A stretch of DNA of 20,300 nucleotides from a virus, in the IMG/VR virus record IMGVR_UViG_3300032083_000294, positions 1-20,300 of that record; one strand, 5' to 3'. Position 1 is the first letter of the stretch. Each line of letters starts with the position of its first letter. Positions 499-18,034 of the stretch are shown here, piece by piece. The notes beneath the pieces are model-generated. The model saw only the letters and a program-made list of their open reading frames with translations. It ran no database searches and had not been told where the DNA came from. Both the position numbers and the translations under genes were made by a program.

Positions 499-995
499 CA
501 GACTTTACTAAGTATGAATTTTATAAGGGGTCTCATGTTGTATCAGAGATAAAATTATTTGGCGTTTCATCTCTTGTCTACACAGAAGTATCATGGATGG
601 ATGAGATATGGGATGAACGGCGTTACCAATTGCATCATCAATTTATAAATAAAAAATTAGCAGATGTATCAAGAATATATGGAGACGAGTCTAAAGAGTA
701 CGAAGAGTGTGATGAAATTACCGATGAGGATGGTATTACAACTTACAAAAAGAAAAAAGAATATAGACTTCCTATGTCCCCAACAGGGTTTAGGTCTTCC
801 TTTACAAACTACTATCTCATACAAGACCCTAGAAAATGGGACACAAAGAAATGGTGGGAGAGTATTAAAAAAGAATGTCTTTATCAATTGTTTGGAGAAG
901 ACTTTGAAGACAAGGCTAAAAACTTTGAGAAGATTGGACTAATACCTTTTATCCCAGTGGGAATAACTATCAATAAGAATGTGGAAGCTAATTAA
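495..995 (+). CDS. Hypothetical protein, 166 aa
   Basis: I do not recognise this soluble protein. It is rich in Trp, Tyr, Lys and Glu, with a charged middle (around residues 55-90, EYEECDEITDEDG then KKKKEY). There is no signal peptide or membrane segment. The start ATG overlaps the primase stop by four bases, which supports it as a real gene in the replication operon. Its 3' end carries one copy of the TCCCAGTGGGA palindrome at 952-962, encoding Ile-Pro-Val-Gly. Its place between primase and helicase hints at a role at the replication fork, but nothing in the sequence shows one. Shorter ORFs inside it in other frames look like shadows. Confidence 0.75.
   Translation: MTDFTKYEFYKGSHVVSEIKLFGVSSLVYTEVSWMDEIWDERRYQLHHQFINKKLADVSRIYGDESKEYEECDEITDEDGITTYKKKKEYRLPMSPTGFRSSFTNYYLIQDPRKWDTKKWWESIKKECLYQLFGEDFEDKAKNFEKIGLIPFIPVGITINKNVEAN
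952..962. repeat. Palindrome TCCCAGTGGGA, copy 1
   Basis: Exact copy: 5-bp arms around one central base. It lies in the 166-aa gene and encodes Ile-Pro-Val-Gly. Confidence 0.85.
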
Positions 996-1320
996 TTGTG
1001 GCACATATTTCTGGTATATTAGGACTGATAGGAAGTATCATCATTGCTATAAGCCATACGGAAATAAATCAATTAAGATTAAAATTGGCCGAGCAAGTCC
1101 AACAGTGCTACAAAGATTTGATATTAATTATTTGCACACTTGGTTACGTTCTAGTGATGACGGAAAAACTACATTGGAATGTTACTTACCTAGAATGACA
1201 ATGAAGAATAGAAAAAAAGAAATAGAGAGACTACAAGAAAACACATTAACAAAAAAAGTAAGAGCAATAATAGAGACCATAAAGAAAACGAGGAGATATG
1301 AAAAAGATAGTAAGAGTTAG
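979..1320 (+). CDS. Hypothetical basic protein, 113 aa
   Basis: Unrecognised. The N-terminus is aromatic and Cys/His-containing (CGTYFWYIRTDRKYHHCYKP), and the C-terminal third is a Lys/Arg/Glu-rich probable helix. Two Cys and two His fall close together in the first 25 residues and could bind a metal, though no known finger pattern fits. It overlaps the 166-aa gene by 17 bases and the next gene by 23. No good Shine-Dalgarno lies ahead of 979. A 66-aa ORF in another frame (998-1198, GTG start) competes for the same DNA. I favour this frame because it fills the gap exactly and its codon choice resembles the neighbours. Confidence 0.6.
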   Translation: MWKLINCGTYFWYIRTDRKYHHCYKPYGNKSIKIKIGRASPTVLQRFDINYLHTWLRSSDDGKTTLECYLPRMTMKNRKKEIERLQENTLTKKVRAIIETIKKTRRYEKDSKS

Positions 1321-1624
1321 AAAACTAAACGACATTGATGAGTTTGATTGGGAGATAACATTTGAAGACAGCACAATAATTAATCACAAGCATGAACATT
1401 TTTTTAGTTTAATAGAGAAGGGTCTCAGTGATACTTCTAAACCAGAGCATAAGATAGAGGATAACCCAGAGCATCCTCACTTCTTTGTTAAAGACCCAGA
1501 GGTAGAGGCCCTGGATATAAAGAACCCACGCAATAAAGAATTGATAAAGCAATTCAGAGAGGATGCAAGAACAATGAGAGTAAGTGAATTTAATGACAAG
1601 TACCCATCAAAAAAAGTTAGATAA
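1298..1624 (+). CDS. Hypothetical acidic protein, 108 aa
   Basis: The start is well supported: AGGAG at 1290-1294 precedes the ATG at short spacing, and the start lies inside the end of the previous gene. The protein is unrecognised, soluble and charged. The middle is rich in His, Glu and Pro (around residues 48-68, PEHKIEDNPEHPHFF). The C-terminal half, from about residue 75, looks helical (NKELIKQFREDARTMRVSEF). There is no signal peptide or membrane segment. It lies in the primase-helicase interval, so a replication-related accessory role is possible but not shown. Confidence 0.75.
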   Translation: MKKIVRVRKLNDIDEFDWEITFEDSTIINHKHEHFFSLIEKGLSDTSKPEHKIEDNPEHPHFFVKDPEVEALDIKNPRNKELIKQFREDARTMRVSEFNDKYPSKKVR

Positions 1625-1778
1625 CTATATTAAATTGATACAGTTGGCAGACACTTTTCAAGACAGCAATATGAAACTTAAAATACTAAACAATATAGAG
1701 GCGGATGTTAGAGCGAAAACTATTAAAACTTCTGATGAGCAAAGAGTTTTATCAGAGGACAAAAAACAAAATAAATAA
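1593..1778 (+). CDS. Small hypothetical protein, 61 aa, overlapping helicase start
   Basis: This is a short helical, polar ORF (MTSTHQKKLDNYIKLIQLAD...). I take the ATG at 1593; an in-frame GTG at 1584 would add three residues. It starts inside the 108-aa gene and ends 74 bases inside the helicase ORF if the helicase begins at 1705. If the helicase instead starts at the in-frame ATG at 1735, the overlap falls to 44 bases. The composition looks like a real protein and a gene here would keep the operon tight. The long overlap leaves its status open. Confidence 0.5.
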   Translation: MTSTHQKKLDNYIKLIQLADTFQDSNMKLKILNNIEADVRAKTIKTSDEQRVLSEDKKQNK

Positions 1779-2922
1779 AAATACTTTTACTAATGGTTCT
1801 TTTGAACTGTATAAAACATTAGCAAAAGCATATGAAGAATATCCAGAGATAGAATCTGTAGATACAGATACGTTACGCACATTACATTTTGATAAATACA
1901 ATCCCATGATTACTACTGCCAACAAAAGAAACATGGAAGACTTGATAGGAATAATTAGTAGCCAAGATATTCCCAGTGGGAGTGCAATTGAGGACACATT
2001 AAATAGAATTTATATTAGAGAAAAAGCCAAGGATTTAGCCAATTTAGCCACAGATGTGTTCAATGGTAAGACACATAATTTACACAGTATTCGCACATAC
2101 TTAAATGATATAGAGAACATAAAAGAAAAAGAAATACAGCCAGTGTCTACGCAGATAGAAGACATCATGCAAGGCGTTGATACATCTAATCATTATCATT
2201 TTAATATTAGAGAACTACAAGATAGAATAGGCGGCATAGGTAAAGGTAATTTTGGAATAATATTTGCAAGACCAGAGACAGGGAAGACAGCTTTCTGGGT
2301 TTCATTAGTTGCAAATGAGAACGGATTTGCCCATCAAGATATAAATGTACACGCATTTGTTAATGAAGAGCCTGCAATTCGTACACAGATGAGACTAATT
2401 ACTGCGTGTTGTGGTATGTCAAGGGAGCAAATTGCCTCAGATATTGAGTTAGCTAAAGAAAAATGGTCTCAGATTAGTACCAATATTAAGCTATATGATA
2501 CTGTTGATTGGGATATGTCAGACTACGATGCCCACTGCGAACAATACAATCCAGACTTACTTATCATTGACCAGTTAGATAAAGTAAATGTTGGGGGTAT
2601 GTATAACAGACAAGATGAAAAGCTAAGAGAGATTTATAAACAAGCTAGAGAATTATGTAAGCGTAGAAATTGTTGTGTGATAGGTGTATCCCAGGCAAGT
2701 GCTGATGCTCATGATAGAGAGAGGATAGGATTTGATATGATGGAGAACTCAAAGACAGGTAAAGCCGCAGAGGCTGACTTGATTATAGGTATAGGTAAGA
2801 AGGATGATTTAGAACAAACATCTATTGAAAGACATTTATCTATTAGTAAAAACAAAATGTCTGGTTGGCATGGTGTAGTAACTACACAGCTACAGGTAGA
2901 ACTATCTAGGTTTGTAGACTAA
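1705..2922 (+). CDS. Replicative DNA helicase, DnaB/gp4 helicase-domain family
   Basis: This is a 405-aa hexameric helicase that should unwind the fork 5' to 3' with ATP. An N-terminal DnaB-like helical part (about 1-140) is followed by a RecA-type motor. Walker A is ARPETGKT (188-195, Lys194). The catalytic Glu is in FVNEEP (Glu221). Walker B is DLLIIDQLD (Asp289). The H4/sensor strand is CVIGVSQAS (Gln330), and a C-terminal basic segment, SKNKMSGWHG (381-390), precedes the last strand. A Glu occupies Walker A position 191, where Gly, Ser or Asn is more usual. No TOPRIM or zinc domain is fused, consistent with the separate primase upstream. The start is ATG 1705 (ATG 1735 also possible). The stop TAA shares a base with the next ATG. 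A palindrome copy lies at 1971-1981. Confidence 0.92.
   Translation: MLERKLLKLLMSKEFYQRTKNKINKNTFTNGSFELYKTLAKAYEEYPEIESVDTDTLRTLHFDKYNPMITTANKRNMEDLIGIISSQDIPSGSAIEDTLNRIYIREKAKDLANLATDVFNGKTHNLHSIRTYLNDIENIKEKEIQPVSTQIEDIMQGVDTSNHYHFNIRELQDRIGGIGKGNFGIIFARPETGKTAFWVSLVANENGFAHQDINVHAFVNEEPAIRTQMRLITACCGMSREQIASDIELAKEKWSQISTNIKLYDTVDWDMSDYDAHCEQYNPDLLIIDQLDKVNVGGMYNRQDEKLREIYKQARELCKRRNCCVIGVSQASADAHDRERIGFDMMENSKTGKAAEADLIIGIGKKDDLEQTSIERHLSISKNKMSGWHGVVTTQLQVELSRFVD
1971..1981. repeat. Palindrome TCCCAGTGGGA, copy 2
   Basis: Exact copy in the helicase gene, in frame as Pro-Ser-Gly. Confidence 0.85.
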
Positions 2923-3247: not shown

Positions 3248-3491
3248 ATATGAAATAAAAGAACCAGTATGGAAAGATAATAGTATTGGTATTGCAGAAT
3301 TTAGATTAAATACTAATTTGTTAGTTGATATAACTTATAAAAATAAAAATAATGAACGTGTTTTTCCAAATACGTATATTATAAAAAATCCTAATTTGAC
3401 AAACAGAAGTTATCAAAATATATATGGTAAAAAAATATATAAATTTTTAATTAGTGAGTTAGAGGTGTATGATGAGGAGAAATGCGGATGA
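3234..3491 (+). CDS. Hypothetical protein, 85 aa
   Basis: Unrecognised soluble protein rich in Asn, Lys and Tyr, probably mixed alpha/beta. An ATG at 3222 is in frame, but the Shine-Dalgarno AGGAG at 3225-3229 lies after it. It would serve the GTG at 3234 (4-base spacer) or the GTG at 3240 (10 bases), so I use 3234. The last residues, YDEEKCG, repeat the DEEKCG near the end of the upstream gene. Both are encoded by near-identical DNA that also carries the Shine-Dalgarno of the following gene. Coding is supported by the tight overlaps on both sides. Confidence 0.65.
   Translation: MAVNKYEIKEPVWKDNSIGIAEFRLNTNLLVDITYKNKNNERVFPNTYIIKNPNLTNRSYQNIYGKKIYKFLISELEVYDEEKCG
3471..3487 (+). repeat. Direct repeat, gene-junction type, copy B
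   Basis: GATGAGGAGAAATGCGG, the partner of 3221-3237, 250 bases downstream. It encodes DEEKCG at the end of the 85-aa gene and holds the polymerase's Shine-Dalgarno. Confidence 0.7.
3475..3479 (+). promoter_or_regulatory. Shine-Dalgarno deciding the polymerase start
   Basis: AGGAG lies 8 bases before ATG 3488 but only 2 bases before the in-frame ATG 3482. The downstream ATG is therefore the better start for the polymerase. Confidence 0.6.
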
Positions 3492-5512
3492 TAACAACAG
3501 TAGATATAGAGACAACTTACGATAATAACTTTAATCCTTCTCCCTTTGTTCCAGAAAATAAACTAATCTCAGTGGGAATAAACGATAAGTATTATTTTTT
3601 TTATCACACAGAATTTAACGGAGACACTTCTAAAAATTTTAAAGAGGTGCAAGACTTACTAGACAATACTACTTTACTTGTTGGACATAATATAAAATTT
3701 GATTTGATGTGGATGTTAGAGGCAGGATTTAAATACAGTGGTGCCGTTTATGACACAATGATTACTGAGTATGTTTTACTACGAGGTACAAAACAATCAT
3801 TAAAATTATCAGAGTGTTGTAAGCGAAGACACTTAGGAAAGAAACTTGGAGATACAATTGATAAGTACATTGAAGGTGGCAAAGATTATAGTTACATTCC
3901 TATAGATATTTTAGAAGAGTACGGAAGAAAAGATGTAGAGATAACAAGAGAGTTATATGATTCTCAGCAACACAACTTACGAGAGGCAACACACCTACAA
4001 AAAAGTATTACCATGATGAATCAATTTCTTTTAGTCTTAATAGAAATGGAACGCAATGGTATTTATATTGAAACTGATTTACTTGATAAGGTAGAGAAAG
4101 AATTTACTGCGGAGTATCATCAAGTACACAACAAAATAAAAACTATAATTCAACGAGTTATGGGAGATACTCCAATTAATTTATCAAGCCCAGAACAATT
4201 ATCATGGATGGTCTATAGTAAAAAAGTTGTAGATAAAAAAGTTTGGACTGAAACATTTAACATTGGCATTGATAAAAACACAGGAAGACAAAAGAAAAGA
4301 ACACGACATTCTGATAGAGACTTTCAAGGTATTGTAAATAAATGGACAGAGCCAGTGTATAAAACTTCTGCAATGCAGTGTGAGACTTGTCAAGGCGTAG
4401 GCTACATACAAAAATTTAAAGTTGATGGTAACCCTTACAAAAATATGTCTAAGTGTTCTCCTTGTAATGGAGAAGGTGTAAAGTACATAGAGAGAGAACA
4501 GATAGCAGGATTTCAAATACCAACTAAGTTTGCTAACGATGTTTCTGATGGTGGATTTAAAACAGATAAAGAAACTTTAAAAAAGATTGCATCGTATAAC
4601 TCTGGTTTAATTAGAGAGTTTGTTGAATTAGTTACAAGGTATGGTGCATTAGAAGTATGGCTAAGTACATTTGTTAGAGGAATAAAAGATGCACTGCTTG
4701 GTAATTTTTTACACCCTGCTTTTATGCAATGCATTACAGCTACTGGAAGATTGTCTAGTAGAAACCCTAACTTTCAAAATCAACCAAGAGCAAAAACATT
4801 TCCTATACGACAAGTAATTAGGTCTAGGTTTGAAGGTGGTAAGATTATGGAAATAGATTATGCACAATTAGAATTTAGAGCCGCAGTATTTTTAGCTCAA
4901 GACAGGCAAGGTATAGAGGATATTGTTAATGGTGTAGACGTTCATCAATACACTGCAAATATTATTGGTTGTTCTAGACAAGAAGCAAAGCCACATACAT
5001 TTAAACCTTTGTATGGAGGTAAGTCTGGAACAGAGAATGAAAGAAAATACTACAAAGCATTTTTAAATAAGTACAAAGACATATCTAAATGGCATACTGA
5101 ATTAGAGAACAAAGCAATAAAAACAAAGATGGTTACTCTTCCCACTGGGAGGCAGTATTGTTTTCCATACATAAGAAGAATGTCTTGGGGGGCATCTAAC
5201 TATCCAACACAAGTAAAGAATTATCCAGTGCAAGGATTTGCAACAGCAGATGTTGTACCTCTTGCGTGTATTAACATACACAAACTGATGAAAGAACATG
5301 GGTGTAAGAGCCTATTAATAAACACTGTTCACGACTCGATAGTAGTCGATGTGTACCCGACTGAAGTAGAAGTTCTAAGTAAAATACTAAAACAAGGATG
5401 TCTTGATGTTAAGCAGGAACTAAAGTCTAGATACGATATAGATTTTAATGTGCCTCTTGATGTAGACGTAAAGATGGGAATAGATTGGCTTAACTTAGAA
5501 GAAATTGATTGA
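3488..5512 (+). CDS. DNA polymerase, family A, with 3'-5' exonuclease domain and zinc-finger-like insertion
   Basis: This is the 674-aa phage replicative polymerase. Exonuclease motifs: VDIETT (Asp6, Glu8), GHNIKFD (66-72) and YGRKD (145-149). Polymerase motifs: TGRLSSRNPNFQNQ; motif A, DYAQLEFR (Asp457); motif B, AKPHTFKPLYG (Lys501, Phe505, Tyr509); motif C, VHDS (His615, Asp616). All catalytic residues are present. Phe505 aligns with E. coli Phe762. There is no 5'-3' exonuclease domain, as in T7 gp5. Between exonuclease and palm, CETCQGVGY (Cys298, Cys301) and CSPCNGEG (Cys323, Cys326) form a DnaJ-like CxxCxGxG pair. This lies in the thumb region, where T7 polymerase has its thioredoxin-binding loop. 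The start is ATG 3488, chosen by the Shine-Dalgarno. A TCCCACTGGGA copy (5140-5150) encodes the LPTGR turn. Confidence 0.95.
   Translation: MITTVDIETTYDNNFNPSPFVPENKLISVGINDKYYFFYHTEFNGDTSKNFKEVQDLLDNTTLLVGHNIKFDLMWMLEAGFKYSGAVYDTMITEYVLLRGTKQSLKLSECCKRRHLGKKLGDTIDKYIEGGKDYSYIPIDILEEYGRKDVEITRELYDSQQHNLREATHLQKSITMMNQFLLVLIEMERNGIYIETDLLDKVEKEFTAEYHQVHNKIKTIIQRVMGDTPINLSSPEQLSWMVYSKKVVDKKVWTETFNIGIDKNTGRQKKRTRHSDRDFQGIVNKWTEPVYKTSAMQCETCQGVGYIQKFKVDGNPYKNMSKCSPCNGEGVKYIEREQIAGFQIPTKFANDVSDGGFKTDKETLKKIASYNSGLIREFVELVTRYGALEVWLSTFVRGIKDALLGNFLHPAFMQCITATGRLSSRNPNFQNQPRAKTFPIRQVIRSRFEGGKIMEIDYAQLEFRAAVFLAQDRQGIEDIVNGVDVHQYTANIIGCSRQEAKPHTFKPLYGGKSGTENERKYYKAFLNKYKDISKWHTELENKAIKTKMVTLPTGRQYCFPYIRRMSWGASNYPTQVKNYPVQGFATADVVPLACINIHKLMKEHGCKSLLINTVHDSIVVDVYPTEVEVLSKILKQGCLDVKQELKSRYDIDFNVPLDVDVKMGIDWLNLEEID
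3567..3577. repeat. Palindrome near-copy TCTCAGTGGGA
   Basis: One mismatch, in the polymerase exonuclease domain. Encodes Ser-Val-Gly instead of the usual Pro-x-Gly. Confidence 0.6.
5140..5150. repeat. Palindrome TCCCACTGGGA, copy 3
   Basis: Exact copy with C at the centre, in the polymerase at the LPTGR turn before motif C. Confidence 0.85.
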
Positions 5513-5536
5513 CAAGTTCTTTTAATAATCTAATCT
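5509..5536 (+). promoter_or_regulatory. Candidate sigma70-type promoter ahead of the SSB-like gene
   Basis: A perfect TTGACA (5509-5514) overlaps the polymerase stop. It is followed after 16 bases by TAATCT (5531-5536), a weak -10 box. The 58-base gap 5513-5570 is the largest in the left arm and precedes the strongest ribosome binding site, which fits an extra internal promoter. The weak -10 box makes this tentative. Confidence 0.35.
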
Positions 5537-5556
5537 TAAATTTTTAATGTTACCTT

Positions 5557-5565: not shown

Positions 5566-5570
5566 ATTTT

Positions 5571-6389
5571 ATGAATGAATTATCAAACATAGACAACATG
5601 TCTAATGCTGATATTATGGCGGCCATTGGCCAGTCAAAAGGCACTAACCTTCCTCTTCTTCCCAAGCTATCTATTAATAGAGAAGCTACAGATGATGAGG
5701 GAAATCAACTCCCAGTGGGAGTATTTAGAACTTACGATACTGTAAGTGAACAAAGCGTGTTTGGAAAGCCAGTTAAGATAAGGCCTTTTATTAATGCGTT
5801 TCAATGGATGAAGTACGATGAAGAGGCTCAAGCATATTCTAATCGCTCTATAATCTTTACTGATTGGGATGCCCACCAGTATGATATACAAGGCACAGAA
5901 AAATGTGGTAGAGTTAACAGAAAAGAATGGGACAATCTTACACCAGATAAATTAGTAGAACAAAAAAAGGTTAGAGCATATCGCCTAGTCTATGGTTTAC
6001 TAACTATGAAAGGTAAGACAGCTTCTAAAGATGATGTAACTCTTGAGGATTATCCTGTTCTGTATCGTGTCTCTGGATTGAATTACAACCCTATTGGACT
6101 AGCCATTGAAAGTCTTGGTAGACAAAATAAGATTATGTTTAGACATAATATATCTTTGGATACTGAAAGAAAAAAGACAGGCTCTAATGTTTTCTATGTA
6201 GCTAAGACATCTATTGAAAATACACAGATTGATTTTTCTGCAAAAGATAATCAGACTATGGATATATTCAAAGCTGTTATGGAAAAAGAAAATGCTAGTG
6301 TAATGGATAGTTACAACGAGGCTATCAAAAGTAAAACTAATACCCAAGATATTGCAGACGCAAAAATCTTAGAAAAGGTATCAGCATAA
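5571..6389 (+). CDS. Candidate single-stranded DNA-binding protein, 272 aa
   Basis: No catalytic motif is visible and I do not recognise the family with certainty. The SSB call rests on four things: position directly after the polymerase and before the recombination nucleases; a very strong ribosome binding site; a core (about 50-230) rich in aromatic and basic residues and short strands, as in OB-fold proteins; and a polar, disordered-looking C-terminus. The tail (SKTNTQDIADAKILEKVSA) lacks the acidic-aromatic tip typical of SSB and T7 gp2.5, which counts against the call. Residues 1-40 look flexible. A palindrome copy (5710-5720) encodes LPVG. Alternatives are a recombination mediator or another abundant DNA-binding protein. 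Confidence 0.5.
   Translation: MNELSNIDNMSNADIMAAIGQSKGTNLPLLPKLSINREATDDEGNQLPVGVFRTYDTVSEQSVFGKPVKIRPFINAFQWMKYDEEAQAYSNRSIIFTDWDAHQYDIQGTEKCGRVNRKEWDNLTPDKLVEQKKVRAYRLVYGLLTMKGKTASKDDVTLEDYPVLYRVSGLNYNPIGLAIESLGRQNKIMFRHNISLDTERKKTGSNVFYVAKTSIENTQIDFSAKDNQTMDIFKAVMEKENASVMDSYNEAIKSKTNTQDIADAKILEKVSA
5710..5720. repeat. Palindrome TCCCAGTGGGA, copy 4
   Basis: Exact copy in the SSB-candidate gene, encoding Leu-Pro-Val-Gly. Confidence 0.85.
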
Positions 6390-6390
6390 C

Positions 6391-7293
6391 ATGTCCAATG
6401 TAGTTGAAACACTACAGAACTTTTTGGCACAGGCTTGTAAAGAGCCTGTGTCTGTATCATCAGAGATTATTGATGAGTTTGGAGAGTTGTGTAAAGAAGC
6501 ATTTAAAAAACAATTTACACAGGAGAGAGAGAAAAAATTTAGAATTAGAATGTCTAACATTGGTAGGCCCATATGCCAATTGCAAATGGAAAAAGAAAAT
6601 AAGGGTGCTGACATTGAAGAGCAACCTTATAATTCTAAACTAAGAAATATGTTTGGGGACATTATAGAAGTAATAACATATGCTATGATGAAAGCATCTA
6701 ATGTAAATATAGAAAGCTACCAAAAGAAAGTAAAGTATAAAATACATGACGAGCTAGAAATGTCTGGTAGCACTGATGTAGAAATAGATGGTAAAGTTTA
6801 TGATATTAAATCAGCTAGCCCTTTTTCTTATGATAAAAAATTTGGAAAAGATGGTGGAGGATTTACTAAAGTTGCAGAAGAAGATGTGTTTGGATACTTA
6901 TCCCAGGGTTATCTATACGCAGAGTCTCTTGGTAAACCTTTTGGTGGATGGATTGTAATTAATAAATCAACAGGAGAGATACAACTTACTGCTCCTCCCA
7001 CTGATGATAGTAAATATAAAGACCAAGCAATAGGTTTAGCTAAACGTAATGCTGAACATATACTTAATGGTAAAGAGTTTAAGAGATGCTTTACTGATGA
7101 GGAGGAAACATTTAGACAAGTAAAAACTGGTAACAGAAAACTTGGAACTATCTGTTCTTTCTGTTCTTACAAGAAACCTTGTTGGGGTGACAAGATAAAG
7201 TTCCTACCACAGCAACAATCAAAGGCCCGTAATCCGAGATGGTTTTGGTATACGGAAGTTAATCAACCTAGAGAGGATAACAATGTCGGATGA
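6391..7293 (+). CDS. Cas4/AddB-like PD-(D/E)XK exonuclease with probable Fe-S cluster
   Basis: This 300-aa RecB-family nuclease has Glu93 (GDIIEV), Asp129 (GSTDVEIDG) and Asp138-x-Lys140 (VYDIKSAS) as the metal-binding and catalytic set. The QxxxY-type motif is QGYLY (172-176). The iron-sulfur pattern of Cas4 and AddB is present: a lone Cys62 (GRPICQLQ) near the N-terminus plus C-x2-C-x5-C at the C-terminus (CSFCSYKKPC, 255, 258, 264). Family knowledge says such enzymes are DNA exonucleases. Here it probably degrades host DNA and resects ends for recombination, the role of T7 gp6. No cas1 or cas2 is nearby, so a CRISPR role is not suggested. It starts one base after the previous stop, and its own stop overlaps the next gene by 11 bases. 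Confidence 0.85.
   Translation: MSNVVETLQNFLAQACKEPVSVSSEIIDEFGELCKEAFKKQFTQEREKKFRIRMSNIGRPICQLQMEKENKGADIEEQPYNSKLRNMFGDIIEVITYAMMKASNVNIESYQKKVKYKIHDELEMSGSTDVEIDGKVYDIKSASPFSYDKKFGKDGGGFTKVAEEDVFGYLSQGYLYAESLGKPFGGWIVINKSTGEIQLTAPPTDDSKYKDQAIGLAKRNAEHILNGKEFKRCFTDEEETFRQVKTGNRKLGTICSFCSYKKPCWGDKIKFLPQQQSKARNPRWFWYTEVNQPREDNNVG
6428..6450 (+). repeat. Hairpin CACAGGCT / AGCCTGTG
   Basis: A perfect 8-bp, GC-rich stem with a 7-base loop (TGTAAAG), about 40 bases after the exonuclease start codon. There is no T run after it, so it is not a terminator. It could slow early translation. Confidence 0.4.
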
Positions 7294-7609: not shown

Positions 7610-7980
7610 ATACTAATAACAAGTTTGACCTTGATTTAAAGTATGGACAGATGCGTGAGAAACAAGTTCACAATATGTTTTACAATAAAAAGATTGAAGT
7701 TAAAACAGAACGAGACTGGTGGGCAAAGACAGGTAACATAGCTATTGAAGTAGCCTGTAATGGTAAACCCAGTGGGATTAGCGTTACTAAATGTGACTAC
7801 TGGATACATGTACTAGCCATTGGTAAAAAAGATTACTGTAAATTAGTATTTCCTATTGACAGAATAAAAAAATTAACTAAAAAATATAAGGATAAATCAA
7901 GAATGTTAGGAGATAGAAACGCATCTAAATGTATCCTAATACCACTAAAAGAATTATTTAATAAGGAGAATATAGCTTAA
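7573..7980 (+). CDS. PD-(D/E)XK nuclease, candidate Holliday-junction resolvase
   Basis: This 135-aa basic protein carries a restriction-fold signature: FDLDLKYGQ (18-25), KKIEVKTERDWW (39-50, Glu42 and Lys44 as E-x-K) and TGNIAIEV (53-60). It resembles small phage-encoded endonucleases I remember with the EVKTE...TGN.AIE pattern, which are often annotated as resolvase or MvaI-like. In T7 the endonuclease gp3 fills this role by trimming branched DNA before packaging. Here the neighbouring Cas4-like exonuclease would complete the recombination set. The family is fairly clear; the exact substrate is not. A near-copy of the palindrome (7767-7777) encodes KPSG in the core. Confidence 0.7.
   Translation: MAKKIQKTNPKLNTNNKFDLDLKYGQMREKQVHNMFYNKKIEVKTERDWWAKTGNIAIEVACNGKPSGISVTKCDYWIHVLAIGKKDYCKLVFPIDRIKKLTKKYKDKSRMLGDRNASKCILIPLKELFNKENIA
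7767..7777. repeat. Palindrome near-copy ACCCAGTGGGA
   Basis: One mismatch at the outer base, in the resolvase candidate, encoding Lys-Pro-Ser-Gly. Confidence 0.7.
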
Positions 7981-8626: not shown

Positions 8627-9434
8627 CTTTATATGGGTCTATATAAAAGTAGTGTTCTCCATATTTTTTACCGTTCGACATTGGGTCTTGATTAAAATAC
8701 AAAGCACCCCCAGTATTATCTTTTAATTTACCTGCTAGTAAATCTCTAGCTATGTTAAAGGCTTTTATATACTTCTCTTCATGCGTTTTTCTAGGATTAT
8801 TAAACCTGTCTTCAAATTCTGTGACCCCTAAGAAGTCTCCGCTTCTAATTAATTTTTCTATTCTAGTTTCTCCTTTTCCAATACTAAACCCTGTCTTTTT
8901 ATTTGCTCTGTTAACTACAACGTTTGCCATAGCTAACATCTCTTCTTCGTTTAAATTCTTATCACCTGCTTCCGTGACAATCATTTTAGCAATTAAGTCT
9001 GCATCATACATAAATTTAATTTCATCTGGCTTTTCTTTTGAAACTATAGGCGTTTCTACCTTTTCAACTTTAACATCCCCAGTGGGAACATTATCTTTAT
9101 CAAATTGTTGCCCAGGCCTAGCTTCAATTATTTGTTTTTCTTTTTCTTTCCCATAGCCAAGCAAACTTTGAACTCGTTCTTTCATGTAAGATATAAATCC
9201 ATCTCTATCATTACTTAAATCTTCTACAACTATATCATTGTAATCTACTTTGTTCATACCATACTTAGATTCTTGATACTCTTGTTTAATTACATCCATA
9301 GCCTCTTTGTCATTTATGTATGGAGATACATAGCTTTCTTCAAAGCCTTTACCAAGAACTACTGTCTGCCCTTCTATTTCTTTTGTTTGTAATCTTTCTG
9401 TTTGTTGATTTAACGCATCACTTGTTTCTGTCAT
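8619..9434 (-). CDS. SleB-type cell-wall hydrolase (endolysin or virion lysin), 271 aa
   Basis: The C-terminal half is a Hydrolase_2/SleB domain: IVTEAGDKN with the catalytic-type Glu, MLAMANVVVNRA, ...FEDRF..., FNIARDLLAG, DNTGGALYFNQ and GEHYFY at the end. Such enzymes cleave peptidoglycan glycan strands. The first 150 or so residues are polar and charged with no recognised domain and no signal peptide, so export would need a holin, or the enzyme is carried in the virion. I start at ATG 9434 (MTETSDALNQ). An upstream in-frame start at 9491 would run through the previous gene's end. No clear Shine-Dalgarno is seen. It is the last gene of the - operon, after a run of small membrane proteins, which suits a lysis cassette. 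A palindrome near-copy (9077-9087) encodes VPTG. Confidence 0.8.
   Translation of the reverse strand: MTETSDALNQQTERLQTKEIEGQTVVLGKGFEESYVSPYINDKEAMDVIKQEYQESKYGMNKVDYNDIVVEDLSNDRDGFISYMKERVQSLLGYGKEKEKQIIEARPGQQFDKDNVPTGDVKVEKVETPIVSKEKPDEIKFMYDADLIAKMIVTEAGDKNLNEEEMLAMANVVVNRANKKTGFSIGKGETRIEKLIRSGDFLGVTEFEDRFNNPRKTHEEKYIKAFNIARDLLAGKLKDNTGGALYFNQDPMSNGKKYGEHYFYIDPYKAR
8628..8647. terminator. Weak AT-only hairpin at the convergent junction
   Basis: TTTATAT (8628-8634), loop GGGTCT, ATATAAA (8641-8647) begins one base after the + operon's last stop. No run of T follows on either strand, and it lies inside the hydrolase frame, so termination is doubtful. It is the only candidate found at the junction. 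Confidence 0.2.
9077..9087. repeat. Palindrome near-copy CCCCAGTGGGA
   Basis: One mismatch at the outer base, in the hydrolase gene (minus strand), encoding Val-Pro-Thr-Gly. Confidence 0.7.
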
Positions 9435-10224: not shown

Positions 10225-10235
10225 ATTGTTATCTC

Positions 10236-13200
10236 CTAGAAAAATAAGTTCTCATCACCTTTAAATATATTAAGAGGCGGTATAGAATCTTTTGTTTCAA
10301 ATCCCATTGTTCTTTGTTTAATATAATCTCTGAGAACATCATACTCTGCTCCTTTTTTTATTAGGATTTCAGAAGAGTCATCAAATCTTTTTTTCATATG
10401 GGATTTTATAGATTTAATAAAATCATCGGGGGTTTTATCAAAATCATCTAATGCCATTATAAACATATGTTCTGGTATTTTACCAGTATGAAAATATTTA
10501 TCTGCCGCACTTCTTGCTAAATAAGAATATGAGTATTGAGTATTTCTAGCTAATATATTATATTGAAATTGAAGTTTACCAAAGTATGCTTCTTCTACAC
10601 TATATGAAGATAAGAACCTAGCAAACCAATCATCAAAATCCCTATCAATTATAGGTTTACCTTTTTTATTAAAGTAAGTTTTGTCTCCCTCTTTTTGAAA
10701 AGCTAATTCAAAAGCCGCATGAAAGGGGGTAGGCAATAGGACTTTATAAGCATCCCTTCTCTCTTCTGTGGTGTATTGAATAGTATCACTAACATTAGAA
10801 GCTAAGTCAGTAAATATAACTGGCAGTACATCAACAAATAAATCTTGAAGAATTATATCATACCCAGGAACACTTAAAATACTTTTAGGGTCAAAATTAG
10901 GTACGCCTAATGTAGACTGTAAATCTAAACCTGTTGCACTAGGAAGACCAAATAACATTTCAGAAGGTAACCCTAATTCATACAGTCGTTGACTTAATGT
11001 TCTTACATTATCTTTCATTACAGTATTATAAAATTGAATTGAACTATCTACACTTCTAATTCCTATAGTTTGAGTTACTCCTGCTACTAGTGTAGACGCA
11101 AGAAAAAACGCACCAAATCCTTTGTATTCTTTTCTTCTAACTGCGTTACTTAAATGTTCTCCAAATTGTGCGTACCAATTTTGTTGCCATGTTTTAAATA
11201 AACCTACAGGTTTAGCTAGTATACCAAGACCTCTCTCAGTAAATAAAGAAGGCCTATCAATTATATCGTATCTAACCATGTACATATCTGCCATGTTAGA
11301 CACATTTCTATACATTGCAGGATTTTCTGGAACTCCCATTTGTTTGTATAAATTTCTAAACATAAATGCGGCTTGCATCCTAGAGTATTGTTCAATTCTG
11401 CCTGTAGCATTTAACCCACTTAAATTGTACGCAATTTTTTTAGCTACCCCAACGTAATCCCCTTTCTCTAATGCGTTTTTAAATTCTGTTCTAACTTTAC
11501 CTTTTCTAAATATAGCTTCACCAAAAAACTCATTCATAAACTTTTTATTTATAGTGCCATACTTCATCATAGCATCTACAAACTCCATAGTTTTAGGCGT
11601 AACAAACATCATATCTTTAAAAGAATCTGCCCATGCTCTATGAGGGCTAATAACACCTCCTGTCTTGTCTGCTAGTGTGTGCAGTTTAGCTACAATTATT
11701 TGCGAGGGTTGTATTCCCTGTGCCGCCATGAATCTGCCGTTCCAAAAAAATAAACTTCTAAAAGCTGTGTATGCATTTAGTCTACCAAAAAAATTATCTA
11801 TATCTCTTAACATAATTCCCGTGTGCTTACTTGTAGGCTCAAAAATAAGTTTATTAATAAAGCTAGATATTCCACTTGCAGGAGTTAATCCTACCGCATC
11901 TTGATAAAGTTTATATGCTGTTGCTGTTTGATTTGGATAAGAATTAGATATAGAAAAAGTATCTTTTACAAGATGCCCATCTCTTGCTATATATTTATTA
12001 TACATTTTTGCATCGGTAATTGGTTCGTAAAAAAATTTATTAAAGAAGTTATCTAGCTCAAGCATATGTGTTTTTTTAACTGAGCCTCTTACATAACTTT
12101 CTATTACAAATTTAAAATCTTTTAAACCTTTCTTGCCTGGTGCTGTTCCCGAAAAACCTCCAACAAAATTACCTTCTCTTCTCTTTTTACCTAATGCTCC
12201 TACCTCTCCTACTAAACCAGTTCTCTTTGTTTCAAATAAAATTTTTCTAACATTATCCGGCAAGTCTTTTAGCGATTTGTAGTTTACTTGAGAATGAGCA
12301 AGTAAATTTATATCATCATCTACTCTATAAAATTTAGAGCCTGTCCTTTGATAGTTGTCATTTAGTCTAGCATTAGCTGTAAGATTAGAGTCTTCTTTTA
12401 ATATTTTATTTACTATTTCATCAGCCTTCTTTTTTGTAGGTGCATAATCTATATACAATAGTTTATCACTTTTACCACCTTCTCCCACTCTAATTAAATA
12501 TCTATCGTTCCATCTATGCGGAAAGAAGTTTGGCTGTTTATCAACTTCTATTTTTTCCTTACTAAAGTTTACTCTAGATTGTATTAAGTTATCATACACA
12601 TCATCAAGCCCGTTGCGTATTTGTAAAAACGCCGCCGCTTCTTCTGCATCTAATTTAAATTCATCTTTTAGTGCACTGTGTTTTATATTTCCATTTTGTT
12701 CAAATAGCTGAGGCTTTTTACCAGACAAGTACACTTCTTCTACTTTTATAAAAGCATCTTTAACTTTAATTTGTCTATTAGTTGATAGTTTTTCTAAATA
12801 GTAAAATATAGAGCCATGTCCCATCTTTACATCTACTAATTTAGTAGCAGGAACCATGTCTCCTTTTACTATTAATAGCTGTTCTGTCTTTTCTATTTTT
12901 GAAAATGGTTTTAGGTTATTTCCTAACTTAGTATCAAAATATGCTTTAGCTTCTTTTTCACTAAAAAATATTTTTTTTACAGGAGTTATTTTTCCTGCTT
13001 GTTCTGTTACAATTTTATATCCTTGTGTCCATTCTGGTTTTAAAAATACGCCATGTCTAGTAGGGTCATCTAATCGTAGCTCTGTATCCCTATCAATTTT
13101 AATTCTCATTAAATTAATTTTTTGATTTAATACATTAAGTATAGGAAACTTTTTAAATGCTAATTGTTTGGTTAAAATACCTCTACCAATAAAAGGGTCT

Positions 13201-14495
13201 GTGTCTTTAAACTTAGGTCTCATTATATCTTTTGACCCAGTAATCTCAAACATATCTCTTTTAATTACATTAAGAGGTCTACCATCTATTACCTCATCTC
13301 TAAATTTTTCAACAAGAGCTTTATCTTTTCTTAAAGTAAAGCCTTCTGCATCAAATTGTTTTGTTATGTTTATTTGTGCATTTAATAATTCTTGTTGCTC
13401 TCCTTGCTTTACAAGAAGCTCTTTATTGTTTTTATCTTTTTTTAATTGGGCTGTAGTTTCTTTTAAATCTTGTACTAATTTATTTTGTATATCTATTTGT
13501 TTATTAAAATTTTTTTGAGAATCTGGTATCTTGTTGTTTATCATGTTGGTATACAACTTGACCTCTTTATTCATTACCTTTGGTTTAAAATTTTTAGGGT
13601 CTTTTACAATATCATCATACAATGCCCTTTGTCTACCAACTCCAAAGAAAGCTAGGCCACCAAATAAAGACGCACTAACAACTCTGTCCTCAAAACTAGG
13701 GCCACCTAATCCAAAGCCCACAGTTCCTAGAACTGACATTCTTTGTAGTCTTGGTAATGGTGCAGTGACATCCATAATTTTACCAAGTGTATACCCAAAC
13801 GCCGCCGCTTTTGTTGCCGCTATTGGGCCTTCTTCTGATGCAAAGTATGCTTCTGTTATAGCAAATGATGGAGCCGCCTTACCTTTTGTAATTATTAAAG
13901 CAGGTATTTGTTTAGCAAATTCTATTGGTATTGTACCTACACCAAAAGCTAATTTTTCTGCTACACCACCTTCTGGCAATCCATACTCGTTTAGTATGTT
14001 TATTTTTTGTTCTCTTTCTTCATCTTTTAATCTATCATAAACTTTAAACATATAGCCAGAGATTGTTCCGTCTATTTCTTTTTTTACTTGTTCTGCTTTA
14101 TTAGCGTCTTCTGGTAACAATCCTGTTTTTGCAAACGTCTGGGTCTCATCAGATAAAAACCAAGACGCAGGAGTTGCAAATAGTTTATAGTACGCATCAG
14201 CTTCTGCAAATTTGTATCCTCCCACTGTTAAGTTTCCTAATTTTTCTAGCCTTGCAAATCCATTTGTTTTTCCTGTTTGTAAATTATCTTCATCATTAGA
14301 GTCAGTTGCAGTGAGAGTACCGCCTTCTGGTTCTTGATTTCTAATATTAGATGTAATACTTTCTGGATAAACAAAAGTTTTATTTGGGTATACTGTCTCT
14401 TCTTCTTTTGTTTCTTCTACTAAAGATTTTTCTACATCCTTTTGGATGTCTGGCTTGTCTAGTAAATTTATTTTAGGGTATGTGTATTCAACCAT
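10236..14495 (-). CDS. Large internal virion / DNA-ejection protein candidate, 1419 aa
   Basis: This is by far the longest gene. A polar, disordered-looking N-terminus (about 1-85) leads to a Gly/Ala-rich hydrophobic region (about 180-290, e.g. LGTVGFGLGG, SLFGGLAFFGVG). A coiled coil rich in Lys/Gln follows (about 320-400), then a central part with FFPHRWNDRY (near 655), and a C-terminal part with FKTWQQNWYAQF (near 1100) and a hydrophobic segment FGAFFLASTLVAGV (near 1135). The FKTW...hydrophobic ending recalls very large phage proteins thought to be internal virion or polyvalent proteins. Position among virion genes and ahead of the lysis cluster suits a T7 gp16-like role in carrying DNA across the cell envelope. 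I saw no lytic transglycosylase motif. It starts two bases after the previous stop. No TCCCAGTGGGA copy occurs in it. Confidence 0.6.
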   Translation of the reverse strand: MVEYTYPKINLLDKPDIQKDVEKSLVEETKEEETVYPNKTFVYPESITSNIRNQEPEGGTLTATDSNDEDNLQTGKTNGFARLEKLGNLTVGGYKFAEADAYYKLFATPASWFLSDETQTFAKTGLLPEDANKAEQVKKEIDGTISGYMFKVYDRLKDEEREQKINILNEYGLPEGGVAEKLAFGVGTIPIEFAKQIPALIITKGKAAPSFAITEAYFASEEGPIAATKAAAFGYTLGKIMDVTAPLPRLQRMSVLGTVGFGLGGPSFEDRVVSASLFGGLAFFGVGRQRALYDDIVKDPKNFKPKVMNKEVKLYTNMINNKIPDSQKNFNKQIDIQNKLVQDLKETTAQLKKDKNNKELLVKQGEQQELLNAQINITKQFDAEGFTLRKDKALVEKFRDEVIDGRPLNVIKRDMFEITGSKDIMRPKFKDTDPFIGRGILTKQLAFKKFPILNVLNQKINLMRIKIDRDTELRLDDPTRHGVFLKPEWTQGYKIVTEQAGKITPVKKIFFSEKEAKAYFDTKLGNNLKPFSKIEKTEQLLIVKGDMVPATKLVDVKMGHGSIFYYLEKLSTNRQIKVKDAFIKVEEVYLSGKKPQLFEQNGNIKHSALKDEFKLDAEEAAAFLQIRNGLDDVYDNLIQSRVNFSKEKIEVDKQPNFFPHRWNDRYLIRVGEGGKSDKLLYIDYAPTKKKADEIVNKILKEDSNLTANARLNDNYQRTGSKFYRVDDDINLLAHSQVNYKSLKDLPDNVRKILFETKRTGLVGEVGALGKKRREGNFVGGFSGTAPGKKGLKDFKFVIESYVRGSVKKTHMLELDNFFNKFFYEPITDAKMYNKYIARDGHLVKDTFSISNSYPNQTATAYKLYQDAVGLTPASGISSFINKLIFEPTSKHTGIMLRDIDNFFGRLNAYTAFRSLFFWNGRFMAAQGIQPSQIIVAKLHTLADKTGGVISPHRAWADSFKDMMFVTPKTMEFVDAMMKYGTINKKFMNEFFGEAIFRKGKVRTEFKNALEKGDYVGVAKKIAYNLSGLNATGRIEQYSRMQAAFMFRNLYKQMGVPENPAMYRNVSNMADMYMVRYDIIDRPSLFTERGLGILAKPVGLFKTWQQNWYAQFGEHLSNAVRRKEYKGFGAFFLASTLVAGVTQTIGIRSVDSSIQFYNTVMKDNVRTLSQRLYELGLPSEMLFGLPSATGLDLQSTLGVPNFDPKSILSVPGYDIILQDLFVDVLPVIFTDLASNVSDTIQYTTEERRDAYKVLLPTPFHAAFELAFQKEGDKTYFNKKGKPIIDRDFDDWFARFLSSYSVEEAYFGKLQFQYNILARNTQYSYSYLARSAADKYFHTGKIPEHMFIMALDDFDKTPDDFIKSIKSHMKKRFDDSSEILIKKGAEYDVLRDYIKQRTMGFETKDSIPPLNIFKGDENLFF

Positions 14496-14497
14496 TA

Positions 14498-15604
14498 CTA
14501 TTGAGATAAAGCTAAGAAAATATCTGGTTGATAGTTTCCATCTGGACTAGCTGTTGATAGTGCACTTATAGCTGTTTTTCTATCTACTTTATTTATTAAC
14601 ATAAAATCATTTATATATTTTTCTCTAATAGCAAATTTTCTATCTGGTAAAAATGCAGTAATAGAATCTGGAGACACAAGAGTATCTATCCTTTGCTCTA
14701 CTTGTGTTTTTAAATTAGCTTGATACAACTGAGTGTACTCTTGTATAACTCTAGCTACATCTCTTTCTGGATTTTCTCCTTTAGCCGCCATTAATTTATC
14801 TTGTACAAACATTGGATACTGGTCTTCTAATTGATTTAAAGTAGGTATAAAATTACCTCCACCAAATAATTTAGTAGCATCTTCAACTGATACTGCGGGT
14901 AAACCTATTCGATTCATTTCTTCTGCATCTAAAAAATTAACTTTTAAAAATTGTGCAGTTTTTATATTGTCATAAATTATTTCAGAACTTATTTGTCCAC
15001 TAGTTCCCACTGGGAAGGCTTTAACTTTAGTAAAAGTTATTTGCCTTTCATCAGTTTGTGTTGGTGCTATGACCTGTCCAGACTTTATCTTTTGAATTTG
15101 TTCATTTATTTTCTTTTCTTGTAATGCTATTGCAAAAGTATTTTCTGGAATGTTATTTGCATTTTTTAAAGATGCTTTAGTTTCTTCAAGTTTTTCTAAT
15201 AATTGTGATTGTGTGTCTGCAAGATAAGGGTTATCTGACGGAGTATATTCTCCTTGTAATACTTTATTTCTATATAGCCTAGCTTGAATATCTAAATTAT
15301 TATTTGCTTGTAAATCTTTTGTATCAGAATACAAATCAAACACTCCATCTTGTGCCATAAAATCTGCTACTTCTGGAGAAAAATCTTGAGCTATTCTATT
15401 ATATCTTTTTAAATTAGTAGTTATATTATTTACTTGTTCATTTGATTCTTTTAAAATATTTAAAGACTCATCGTACACAACGCCTGCTCTAGCCTCATCT
15501 AATTTTCTATCATCTCTAAATTTTTGATTTATTCTAGTTAGTGTACCTATAGCTACATCTCTTGGTCTTATCTCAGACATTAAACCTTTTAAATTAAATC
15601 CCAT
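14498..15604 (-). CDS. Putative internal virion protein, 368 aa
   Basis: Soluble, strongly helical and Asn/Gln/Lys-rich, with no enzymatic motif. Its helices (about 25-75 and 120-180) look coiled-coil-like, and the C-terminus (REKYINDFMLINKVDRKTAISALS) is helical. In podoviruses a medium helical protein directly before the giant ejection protein often belongs to the same internal complex (compare T7 gp14-gp15-gp16); this is inference from position only. The start shares one base with the previous stop (TAATG). A 13-bp form of the palindrome (15004-15016) encodes FPVG. Confidence 0.55.
   Translation of the reverse strand: MGFNLKGLMSEIRPRDVAIGTLTRINQKFRDDRKLDEARAGVVYDESLNILKESNEQVNNITTNLKRYNRIAQDFSPEVADFMAQDGVFDLYSDTKDLQANNNLDIQARLYRNKVLQGEYTPSDNPYLADTQSQLLEKLEETKASLKNANNIPENTFAIALQEKKINEQIQKIKSGQVIAPTQTDERQITFTKVKAFPVGTSGQISSEIIYDNIKTAQFLKVNFLDAEEMNRIGLPAVSVEDATKLFGGGNFIPTLNQLEDQYPMFVQDKLMAAKGENPERDVARVIQEYTQLYQANLKTQVEQRIDTLVSPDSITAFLPDRKFAIREKYINDFMLINKVDRKTAISALSTASPDGNYQPDIFLALSQ
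15004..15016. repeat. Palindrome TTCCCACTGGGAA, longest copy
   Basis: Arms of 6 bp. It lies in the 368-aa gene (minus strand) and encodes Phe-Pro-Val-Gly. Confidence 0.85.
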
Positions 15605-16089: not shown

Positions 16090-16092
16090 ACT

Positions 16093-16359
16093 TTATCCTG
16101 TTTTTGATATTGATGCAATTTTTCTAGCTAATTGTTCATACTCGGTAAGCCTATCATCCCAAAAATTTCTATAAGCTATGTAATTAGATACCTCTGGTTG
16201 TTGCACTGTAGATGCACCCTCTGGTTTAAACATTCCCATTTCAAACTTATCAAAACTTACTGGGTCAAAGCCACTGTCTACAGGCCCTTGATTATCCCCA
16301 GAGCCACTAAGATTTTTTCCTAATATTGATAATCCTATTTTAAATATTTCACCCCACAT
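16093..16359 (-). CDS. Small virion-region protein, 88 aa
   Basis: Unrecognised. A short hydrophobic start (MWGEIFKIGLSILGKNL) precedes a Gly/Ser/Pro linker (about 18-50) and a helical C-terminus (NFWDDRLTEYEQLARKIASI). The minus strand has AGGAG upstream at a rather long spacing (about 11 bases). It sits tightly between two virion-type genes, so a structural or assembly role is likely. It is too short and plain to assign further. Confidence 0.65.
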   Translation of the reverse strand: MWGEIFKIGLSILGKNLSGSGDNQGPVDSGFDPVSFDKFEMGMFKPEGASTVQQPEVSNYIAYRNFWDDRLTEYEQLARKIASISKTG

Positions 16360-16372
16360 TATGTACTTTCTC

Positions 16373-18034
16373 CTATTCTATTCTACTGCCTACATTAATA
16401 AGTATGTCACCAATAACACCACCAATTAATTGATTGAGTTTACTTTTAGATGCTTCATCCATAAACATTAAATTAGTTTCTCTTTCTAATGCCGCCATTG
16501 TAATGTTATGATTTCTATTCTCAATGTTTTCTGATGAAGTGTTTGCCCAACTTGCTTCATCTCTCCATTGTTGCCACAGTGCAGACATTGCAAAGTTAGA
16601 TAATCCTAACAAGTTTGCCGCATCTGTTTGGTTAGCCGCATTAACTGCCGCAGTATTTGCAGTATTGATTTGTCTTCTCCATGCTACATTAGATTGGTCT
16701 ACTACTCTTTGATTCTCCACATTAAACTTTTGTCTTGAGTCAACTAGTTGTGCGTTAAACTGATTGATTGCCGCCTCTCGTTGTGCATCAGCTTCTGCTA
16801 CTTGTATTTCATTATTAGAATTAAGTGCATTTATTTTATTTGTTTCTGCTATAGAGAACTGATTCATAGCATCTGTTCTTTGTGCATTTTGCGTTTGTAT
16901 CTGTGCTTGTAAATTATCAAAGAACTCATCAGTTTGCTTTTGACTTGTTGCATTGAACTGTAAAGATGCATTATCAGCCGCTTGGTCAGACAGTAATACT
17001 TGTTGTCTATTTTGTAAGTTAGTTAAACTAGTAGCCTGTCTATTAGATAGATTAGTCATGTCAGTTTGAAAATAGGTTTGGGCATTTTGTATTGCCGCTT
17101 GTTGTCTATTATTTAAATTAGCTAATATGATTTGTCTATAGGCTTCTGCATCTGCCGCCGCAATTTGTGTGCCTGCTCTAAGCACACCTTCTGCTATAGC
17201 TTCTGCCGCAATACTAGAAGCACCAAGACCTCTCTTTGCCATTGCCGCCTCTGCCACTCGTTGTGCACCTCTTGCAAATGGAGGTAGAGGATTACCTTGT
17301 GCTAATGCATTTTCTACATCCGAAGTAATATTTGCTAGTTGTCCTCTTACTGTAGCATTAGCAGTTAGCTCTGCTTGTTGTGCTTGTACTAATTCATTTT
17401 GATTTACTGCTGTTTGCTCTGCTGTTGTTTGAGCCGCAGTCCCTATATCTGTAGGTGTATATGTTCTAAATGTTTCTTGAAATTGTGTTGGAGAGACTGG
17501 AGCCGCAGTCCCTACAGTTGCAGGAGTTATTGTTGGAGCAACAGTTGGTGCAGGAACTGCCGCAGGAGCATCACCTGTTAGTACGCCCGGTGTAGTTTGT
17601 ATTGTTCCAGGAGATACATTTTGTAATTGTAATTGTTGTCCAACACTAGTCCCAGTGGGAAGACCAGGCTGTCTAACTTGAGAGCCTACTTGACCTTGTA
17701 TAAATTGTGATGGGTCTTGAGTTCCTTGTTGTGGTGCTATTTGATTTGGAAATAGTTGAGGTCCGCCTTCTGAGCCTGGGGGCATAGGCCCGCCAGGAGA
17801 TACTTGTCGTAATCCACTATTATCTAAAGTTAATAATTGGCCTTGGCCTTTACTATTTAAATACTTTTGTAAAGCCCCAATCATTGATGACGAACCTTGA
17901 TACTCTTTTCCTTTGTAGTAATATTTTCTTACATCCGCAGTCTGTACTCCAGGAGGTACAAAATTTTGTAAAACATCGTCTTCTGCAAACGGATTTGAAG
18001 AGGGTACATTTTTTATATCATCTTTTATAGCCAT
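16373..18034 (-). CDS. Ala/Gln/Asn-rich repeat virion structural protein, 553 aa
   Basis: The first 60 residues are polar. A long Pro/Gly/Gln/Thr-rich linker (about 70-200) is followed by a long helical region with degenerate repeats around N-L-x-N-R-Q (ANLNNRQQAAIQNAQ, TNLSNRQATSLTNLQNRQQ, then Q/N/A-rich variants to about 460). The segment AMAKRGLGASSIAAEAI just before the repeats is one I recognise from virion structural proteins of marine myophages and podophages, including T4-like cyanophages. The C-terminus (KLNQLIGGVIGDILINVG) is hydrophobic. A long coiled-coil or fibrous virion component is likely; whether it is internal or tail-associated cannot be told. It starts one base after the previous gene. 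A palindrome copy (17650-17660) encodes LPTG. Confidence 0.65.
   Translation of the reverse strand: MAIKDDIKNVPSSNPFAEDDVLQNFVPPGVQTADVRKYYYKGKEYQGSSSMIGALQKYLNSKGQGQLLTLDNSGLRQVSPGGPMPPGSEGGPQLFPNQIAPQQGTQDPSQFIQGQVGSQVRQPGLPTGTSVGQQLQLQNVSPGTIQTTPGVLTGDAPAAVPAPTVAPTITPATVGTAAPVSPTQFQETFRTYTPTDIGTAAQTTAEQTAVNQNELVQAQQAELTANATVRGQLANITSDVENALAQGNPLPPFARGAQRVAEAAMAKRGLGASSIAAEAIAEGVLRAGTQIAAADAEAYRQIILANLNNRQQAAIQNAQTYFQTDMTNLSNRQATSLTNLQNRQQVLLSDQAADNASLQFNATSQKQTDEFFDNLQAQIQTQNAQRTDAMNQFSIAETNKINALNSNNEIQVAEADAQREAAINQFNAQLVDSRQKFNVENQRVVDQSNVAWRRQINTANTAAVNAANQTDAANLLGLSNFAMSALWQQWRDEASWANTSSENIENRNHNITMAALERETNLMFMDEASKSKLNQLIGGVIGDILINVGSRIE
17650..17660. repeat. Palindrome TCCCAGTGGGA, last copy
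   Basis: Exact copy in the linker of the 553-aa gene (minus strand), encoding Leu-Pro-Thr-Gly. Confidence 0.85.

Follow-up and report, generated by a model that had tools for sequence, protein, structure and literature searches.

A lineage-specific 11-base-pair palindrome under selection in the coding DNA of HMO-2011-type marine phages, a candidate protein-binding site

Results

The 20.3-kilobase (kb) stretch analysed here, hereafter the window, is the entire record IMGVR_UViG_3300032083_000294 of an uncultured virus, and it carries a dispersed 11-base-pair (bp) palindrome, TCCCASTGGGA (S being C or G; word 1), in which 5-bp arms surround one centre base (5-1-5). Word 1 is a symmetric double-stranded DNA site, neither a peptide nor an oriented RNA signal; it is kept by selection in one clade of phages (clade 1), and a second clade carries a different word of the same build. 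No other 11-mer of the window is as over-represented: there are 6 exact copies against 0.003 expected under an order-2 Markov model, and matches with up to two mismatches number 12 against 1.6 in dinucleotide shuffles. In relatives scanned without prior choice, TCCCAGTGGGA was again the top over-represented 11-mer. An earlier note on this DNA had listed six exact, three one-mismatch and several partial copies, all of which lie where it placed them (Table 1), together with a copy-free gap across the gene for a 1419-amino-acid (aa) protein, which is real within the window.

Its further claim, that a GC-rich 11-mer should be essentially absent by chance, is borne out by the Markov, dinucleotide and codon-preserving tests. 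When synonymous codons of the window were shuffled with proteins and codon usage fixed (n = 300), the mean was 0.013 copies and the maximum 1, and the relatives behaved alike (12 copies versus 0.02 in G004, 8 versus 0.03 in G005 and, for the second word, 13 versus 0.05 in the clade-2 virus G009). Similar counts in such shuffles had been named beforehand as the main ground for refutation; they were not obtained, and that refutation fails because the shuffles give so few copies on average. This refutes an origin in chance, in codon usage or in the repetition of a Pro-x-Gly peptide. All six exact copies in the window do encode Pro-[Val/Ser/Thr]-Gly, as the earlier note held, but this does not extend to the clade, where other copies encode Ser-Gln/His-Trp-Glu or Pro-Leu-Gly or sit between genes (the peptides seen include PVG, PSG, PTG, PLG and S[QH]WE), so it is not the peptide that drives the word. 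Word 1 also occurs in all three reading frames (frame 2 at 11, frame 1 at 5 and frame 0 at 2 of the distinct clade-1 sites), on both strands and at relative positions from 0.03 to 0.91 along genes.

The shape of the site is that of duplex DNA. In the window, G004 (47 kb) and G005 together, AST fills TCCCNNNGGGA 28 times and ACA/TGT twice, and an A or T centre never occurs. The centre base on the coding strand is C at 11 and G at 7 clade-1 sites, with no strand or orientation preference. Codon shuffles, the three frames, both centre orientations and wobble conservation all bear out the symmetric DNA-level site that had been proposed, which is most simply read as bound by a dimeric protein; the first observation is confirmed and is stronger than first described.

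Selection is visible between orthologues of the window or G001 and those of G004 (80% nucleotide identity), where 5 of 5 sites are kept versus 18% of other 11-mers (p = 2e-4). The proposed check on wobble bases, now run, gave identical fourfold-degenerate third positions in 18 of 19 cases within sites versus 549 of 892 (62%) outside them (Fisher p = 0.0014). At one kept clade-1 site the centre reads ACT (Thr) in one virus and AGT (Ser) in the other, the protein being altered and the palindrome intact. The polymerase peptide LPTGRQY/LPSGREY occurs in nearly all clades examined, and its spelling as TCCCACTGGGA only in clade 1. Relatives that keep the peptides but lose the palindrome had also been named as evidence against a DNA site; distant relatives do keep LPTGRQY without it, but they have zero copies anywhere, so the site is clade-specific.

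An unbiased palindrome scan of the sister virus G009 returned TATCG-N-CGATA, refined to TAYCGSCGRTA (word 2), which has the geometry of word 1 (5-bp arms, one centre base, S centre). In the 36 kb of G009 there are 14 exact copies versus 0.02 expected, and 21 within one mismatch versus 0.36. Word 2 is found throughout its own clade (clade 2), in polymerase, helicase, 165-aa and other early genes, and is absent from clade 1. Its centre on the coding strand is G at 18 and C at 14 sites, and centre flips exchange Gly and Ala in polymerase and helicase with the palindrome intact; in one contig (L191), 5 of 5 sites are conserved versus 8% of 11-mers. An alignment of the 165-aa gene puts word 2 (TATCGGCGATA) on exactly the 11 nucleotides where a one-mismatch word 1 (TACCAGTGGGA) stands. 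In the polymerase tree clades 1 and 2 are each monophyletic (100/100) and are not sisters. A second lineage with a different word of the same build points to a viral DNA-binding protein whose specificity could be swapped.

G004 and G009 each have a site in the intergenic spacer that separates the early operon from a gene encoded divergently to it. Read from an alignment of four clade-2 viruses, this site stands just upstream of a TTGACA-type leftward promoter, with a rightward TTTACA-N17-TATAAT promoter further downstream; in one of the four the asymmetric TATCGGCGGTA has become TACCGCCGATA, the other-strand reading of the same site, and symmetry is kept. With the limits of the early stretch drawn by eye from gene order, sites are enriched in early and replication genes of G004 (p = 0.009 for exact copies, 4e-5 with one mismatch) and G009 (p = 0.006). 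Several clade-2 contigs have pairs of word 2 at a spacing of 39-42 bp, close to four helical turns. A stem-loop in mRNA, acting as terminator, processing signal or protein-binding hairpin, is disfavoured and very improbable: TCCC and GGGA could pair and the sites lie within transcribed DNA, but the loop bases are constrained to complete a DNA palindrome (ASU, GSC), neither the centre nor the orientation is fixed with respect to transcription, and TACCGCCGATA on coding strands would leave a C-A mismatch in RNA.

The genomes compared are metagenomic contigs, some of them incomplete, and the independent lineages are few, with two clear dispersed-word clades. Every contig found with a polA at least 83% identical to that of the window has word 1, at about 0.4-1 per kb of its 9-mer core, and no contig at 69% identity or less has it, including 50 kb of the Pelagibacter phage HTVC033P (L042). 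In a search with the terminase, contigs at 94% identity or more may have word 1, versus 0 of 66 at 77% or less. The presumed host of clade 1 was deduced from HTVC033P; among 297 genomes of SAR11 (Pelagibacterales), 16 have a single copy, no more than for a reversed control pattern. The earlier note had likened the word to HIP1 and KOPS, which are words of host chromosomes; this likeness is not supported, since word 1 is essentially absent from the SAR11 genomes and shows no strand or orientation preference. A host word was likewise rejected for clade 2, the alphaproteobacterial genomes having no consistent word-2 excess over the reversed control.

Two alternatives bear on this distribution. 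A HIP1-like or other genome-wide word produced by mutational, repair or methylation bias, without site-by-site function, would be palindromic, mainly coding and tolerant of all frames, as word 1 is; it is nevertheless disfavoured and improbable, given that the word is not common to SAR11 genomes, is sharply restricted by phage clade, is conserved at orthologous positions, is concentrated in early genes and operator-like intergenic places, and has a different counterpart in a second clade. The sites could also serve, as decoys or as recognition targets, a host protein (regulator, recombination factor or defence factor) that differs between the hosts of the two clades. No binder was found among the phage proteins scanned, the clades could infect different hosts and a host genome would need few sites; the SAR11 counts speak against such a factor, and both the location at early promoters and the exchange of words at one position of the 165-aa gene suggest a system internal to the phage, so we consider it unlikely, if somewhat less so than the bias just described.

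Other members of the phage group have palindromes of their own. A third lineage (clade 3) carries the 14-bp palindrome GTAACACGTGTTAC (L195 116-7060, L197 746-2430), several copies of which lie just upstream of early-region gene starts in a promoter-like or start-associated manner. Two cultured Roseobacter phages with integrases, CRP-1 and CRP-345, have GTCCAANNTTGGAC in their first 15 kb and nowhere else, both within and between genes, at conserved places of the early region that include the integrase gene. HMO-2011 has three perfect AGTCCGNNNNCGGACT palindromes in its leftmost early region. Because each of these viruses has its own, lineage-specific early palindromes recur in the phage group. 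No comparable palindrome was found in G008, HTVC033P, L033, L035, L023, CRP-207, CRP-13 or HTVC115P. In G008 (L148+L149+L150), TAGTGCTAA is weakly over-represented (for example at 1737, 3377, 10131 and 18227) and could be another lineage word. TAAA-N3-TTTA in some sister contigs was set aside as AT-rich, variable in its core and unconvincing. The second half of the 50-kb HTVC033P stretch has very strong CCACCACC/CTCCACC words, which resemble repeated codons of structural or fibre genes.

The replication module and right-arm genes of the window match HTVC033P, the closest cultured match for its polA (57%); no relatives of this polA were found in bacterial genomes. Two CXXCXGXG motifs in the polymerase are the defining trait of HMO-2011-type phages (PMC9038755), and judged by both motifs the window is a fragment of such a phage. 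The 1419-aa protein has no match in PHROGs and no tblastn match in the phage collection. The 135-aa protein (PHROG 13596) is common across pelagiphages, and by eye its KIEVKTE...IAIE suggests a PD-(D/E)XK-like nuclease.

Table 1. Palindrome copies and genes in the window, and palindromes in related phages (ORF, open reading frame)
Feature	Record	Position	Strand	Gene or context	Remarks
Exact word 1, TCCCAGTGGGA	window	952..962		166-aa ORF, IPVGI, frame 1	same site in G001, G002, G005
Exact word 1	window	1971..1981		DnaB-like helicase gene, IPSGS, frame 2	kept in G004 (90% aa identity); absent from all other clades
One-mismatch word 1, TCTCAGTGGGA	window	3567..3577		near polA start, ISVGI	identical one-mismatch copy in G001-G005
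Exact word 1, TCCCACTGGGA	window	5140..5150		polA, LPTGRQY	
Exact word 1	window	5710..5720		272-aa gene, LPVGV, frame 1	
One-mismatch word 1, ACCCAGTGGGA	window	7767..7777		135-aa gene, KPSGI	conserved within clade
One-mismatch word 1, CCCCAGTGGGA	window	9077..9087		minus-strand 290-aa gene (endolysin-like)	
Exact word 1	window	15005..15015		minus-strand 368-aa gene, FPVGT	kept in G002
Exact word 1	window	17650..17660		minus-strand 553-aa gene, LPTGT	kept in G004 (43171), G002 (3911)
Half-site, TCCCACTG	window	6996..7003		exonuclease gene	read directly from sequence
Half-site, TCCCACTG	window	14220..14227		1419-aa gene	
Half-site, TCCCACTG	window	19559..19566		585-aa gene	
DNA primase (C-terminal part)	window	103..498	+		full-length gene in relatives has site near 5' end
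DnaB-like replicative helicase	window	1705..2922	+		
DNA polymerase I (polA)	window	3482..5512	+		two CXXCXGXG motifs, CETCQGVG and CSPCNGEG, read from translation
272-aa protein	window	5571..6389	+	between polA and exonuclease	
Cas4-domain exonuclease	window	6391..7293	+		
135-aa protein, PHROG 13596	window	7573-7980	+		
1419-aa protein	window	10236-14495	-		no full palindrome copy inside
Word 2, examples	G009 (L151+L152, IMGVR_UViG_3300030380_002895)	12101, 14851, 16761, 19631, 23532			
Word-2 pair	L177	3985/4027			
Word-2 pair	L178	4941/4983			
Word-2 pair	L181	4572/4614			
Word-2 pair	L160	8960/8999			
GTCCAANNTTGGAC	CRP-1 (L279)	429, 1059, 2228, 6868			
GTCCAANNTTGGAC	CRP-345 (L281)	384, 1043, 2132, 7079, 14469			
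AGTCCGNNNNCGGACT, perfect	HMO-2011 (L278)	60, 1261, 1926		leftmost early region	

Discussion

From the sequence evidence, the TCCCASTGGGA sites are predicted to form a binding-site network for a dimeric protein of lineage-specific specificity, dispersed in the manner of operators or stoperators, a reading that we favour tentatively and at somewhat less than even odds. The protein recognising word 1 would be a two-fold symmetric dimer with sequence specificity, most probably encoded by the phage, and the lineage would have accumulated and would maintain about 14 exact sites (23 with one mismatch) per 47 kb, densest in early and replication genes. Where the early operon begins, one or more sites would serve this protein as an ordinary operator, and binding of the protein to intragenic sites would create a dispersed repressor, roadblock or looping network with a logic like that of mycobacteriophage stoperators. 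Specificity would split by lineage (TCCCASTGGGA versus TAYCGSCGRTA), with the sites rewritten to match. We infer a dimeric binder, encoded by the phage, that acts in transcription.

Several points weigh against such a network. Classical operators stand between genes, but most of the present sites are intragenic; late genes have copies too (G004, 47 kb); a helix-turn-helix dimer of the classical type would usually need more than 11 bp with 5-bp arms; and a lineage apparently without lysogeny genes has less use for a repressor network. The genes divergent to the early operon are not homologous between the clades. Among the clade proteins scanned, for which the gene list is partial, no helix-turn-helix, ribbon-helix-helix, ParB, integrase, methyltransferase or repressor family was found. 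The 165-aa SH3-like protein, which occurs together with both motifs, is an unconvincing candidate for the binder: it initially tracked the presence of the motif but has short homologues in phages without it, and its AlphaFold model (predicted local distance difference test, pLDDT, 71) has no fold match in the PDB and only a weak resemblance to phage WYL/DUF2693-type small proteins.

Other candidates for the binder were rejected. The divergently encoded 299- and 340-aa proteins, considered as autoregulated repressors, are mutually non-homologous; the 340-aa protein diverges fast while the motif stays fixed, and the gene for the 299-aa protein was found in just two clade-1 contigs. The 135-aa protein is 30-61% identical to the window protein within clade 2, where the motif is constant.

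The sites could instead be architectural or segregation sites, at which a phage ParB-, Noc-, MatP-like or nucleoid-type protein would organise, protect, segregate or package the genome. They are symmetric, lie genome-wide in coding DNA, late genes included, and have no strand bias, a dispersed pattern shared by matS, NBS and parS sites. The early-region enrichment, the lack of a ParB-like family among the proteins scanned and the fact that sister phages of similar genome plan do without any such motif count against this possibility, which is unlikely, though it is the alternative that we take most seriously. That a phage methyltransferase or nuclease system recognises the word, and so tells own from foreign DNA, seems to us quite improbable. 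Symmetric sequences suit methyltransferases, and one clade-1 relative encodes a GIY-YIG endonuclease in its early region (L048, 10984-11712, minus strand), but the scanned proteins yielded no methyltransferase, a target of 11 bp is long for enzymes of this kind, and a genome's own restriction sites are usually avoided, not multiplied.

Among known systems, Cluster A mycobacteriophage stoperators (13-bp sites of L5 Rep) are phage-limited and dispersed, with up to ~30 per genome; their motif differs by lineage, and a site stands in the intergenic region of the regulator and early promoter, with more in downstream genes (PMC6550527). The sites described here share with them a lineage-specific motif at many dispersed places in the phage genome and a site at the early promoter region. 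Stoperators are, however, asymmetric and mostly in one orientation to transcription, whereas the present sites are symmetric, almost all coding and without a predominant orientation, as the centre-base counts of both clades indicate. No repressor family matched among the proteins scanned, where many ORFs have no family and contigs may be incomplete. Because the single orientation fails and no repressor was found, word 1 is not classed as a stoperator system.

The start-associated sequences (SAS) of Cluster K phages are also phage-limited, a 13-bp repeat in 11-19 copies that is absent from the host genome (PMC3203893). They are asymmetric and oriented, 3-7 bp before start codons, whereas word 1 lies throughout genes; the clade-3 GTAACACGTGTTAC near gene starts is closer to them than TCCCASTGGGA is. 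HIP1 is likewise an iterated palindrome mainly in coding DNA, but it is a word of cyanobacterial chromosomes, whereas word 1 is confined to one clade of phages and is seldom found in the likely hosts. The sites of matS, Noc and ParB are palindromic, and KOPS and Chi are oriented and chromosomal. All are dispersed protein-recognition sites, as word 1 may be, but here no cognate protein was found and the word changes by lineage; the asymmetry and strand skew of KOPS and Chi are lacking in a palindrome without skew. The HMO-2011-type phages HTVC033P, HMO-2011, CRP-1 and CRP-345 share the genome plan and the two-CXXCXGXG polymerase, but HTVC033P has no TCCCASTGGGA, and palindromes are nowhere mentioned in the text of the paper describing this group (PMC9038755).

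More broadly, and with rather greater doubt, lytic marine phages may use a phage-encoded short-palindrome binder of a new kind, whose word would be rewritten genome-wide at conserved positions when the specificity of a lineage changes; such a system would parallel stoperators in a symmetric form embedded in coding DNA, and would act in lytic infection or in exclusion between phages. Phages of the HMO-2011 type rank among the dominant ocean viruses, and the majority of their genes have no assigned function. A lineage-specific, selected word in their replication genes is the sign of a hidden system of regulation or genome organisation, and the word is a direct bait for catching its protein, with the lineages offering a natural series of coordinated specificity changes. 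From an evolutionary point of view, the coding sequence of a lytic phage can be constrained by dispersed sites of predicted protein binding.

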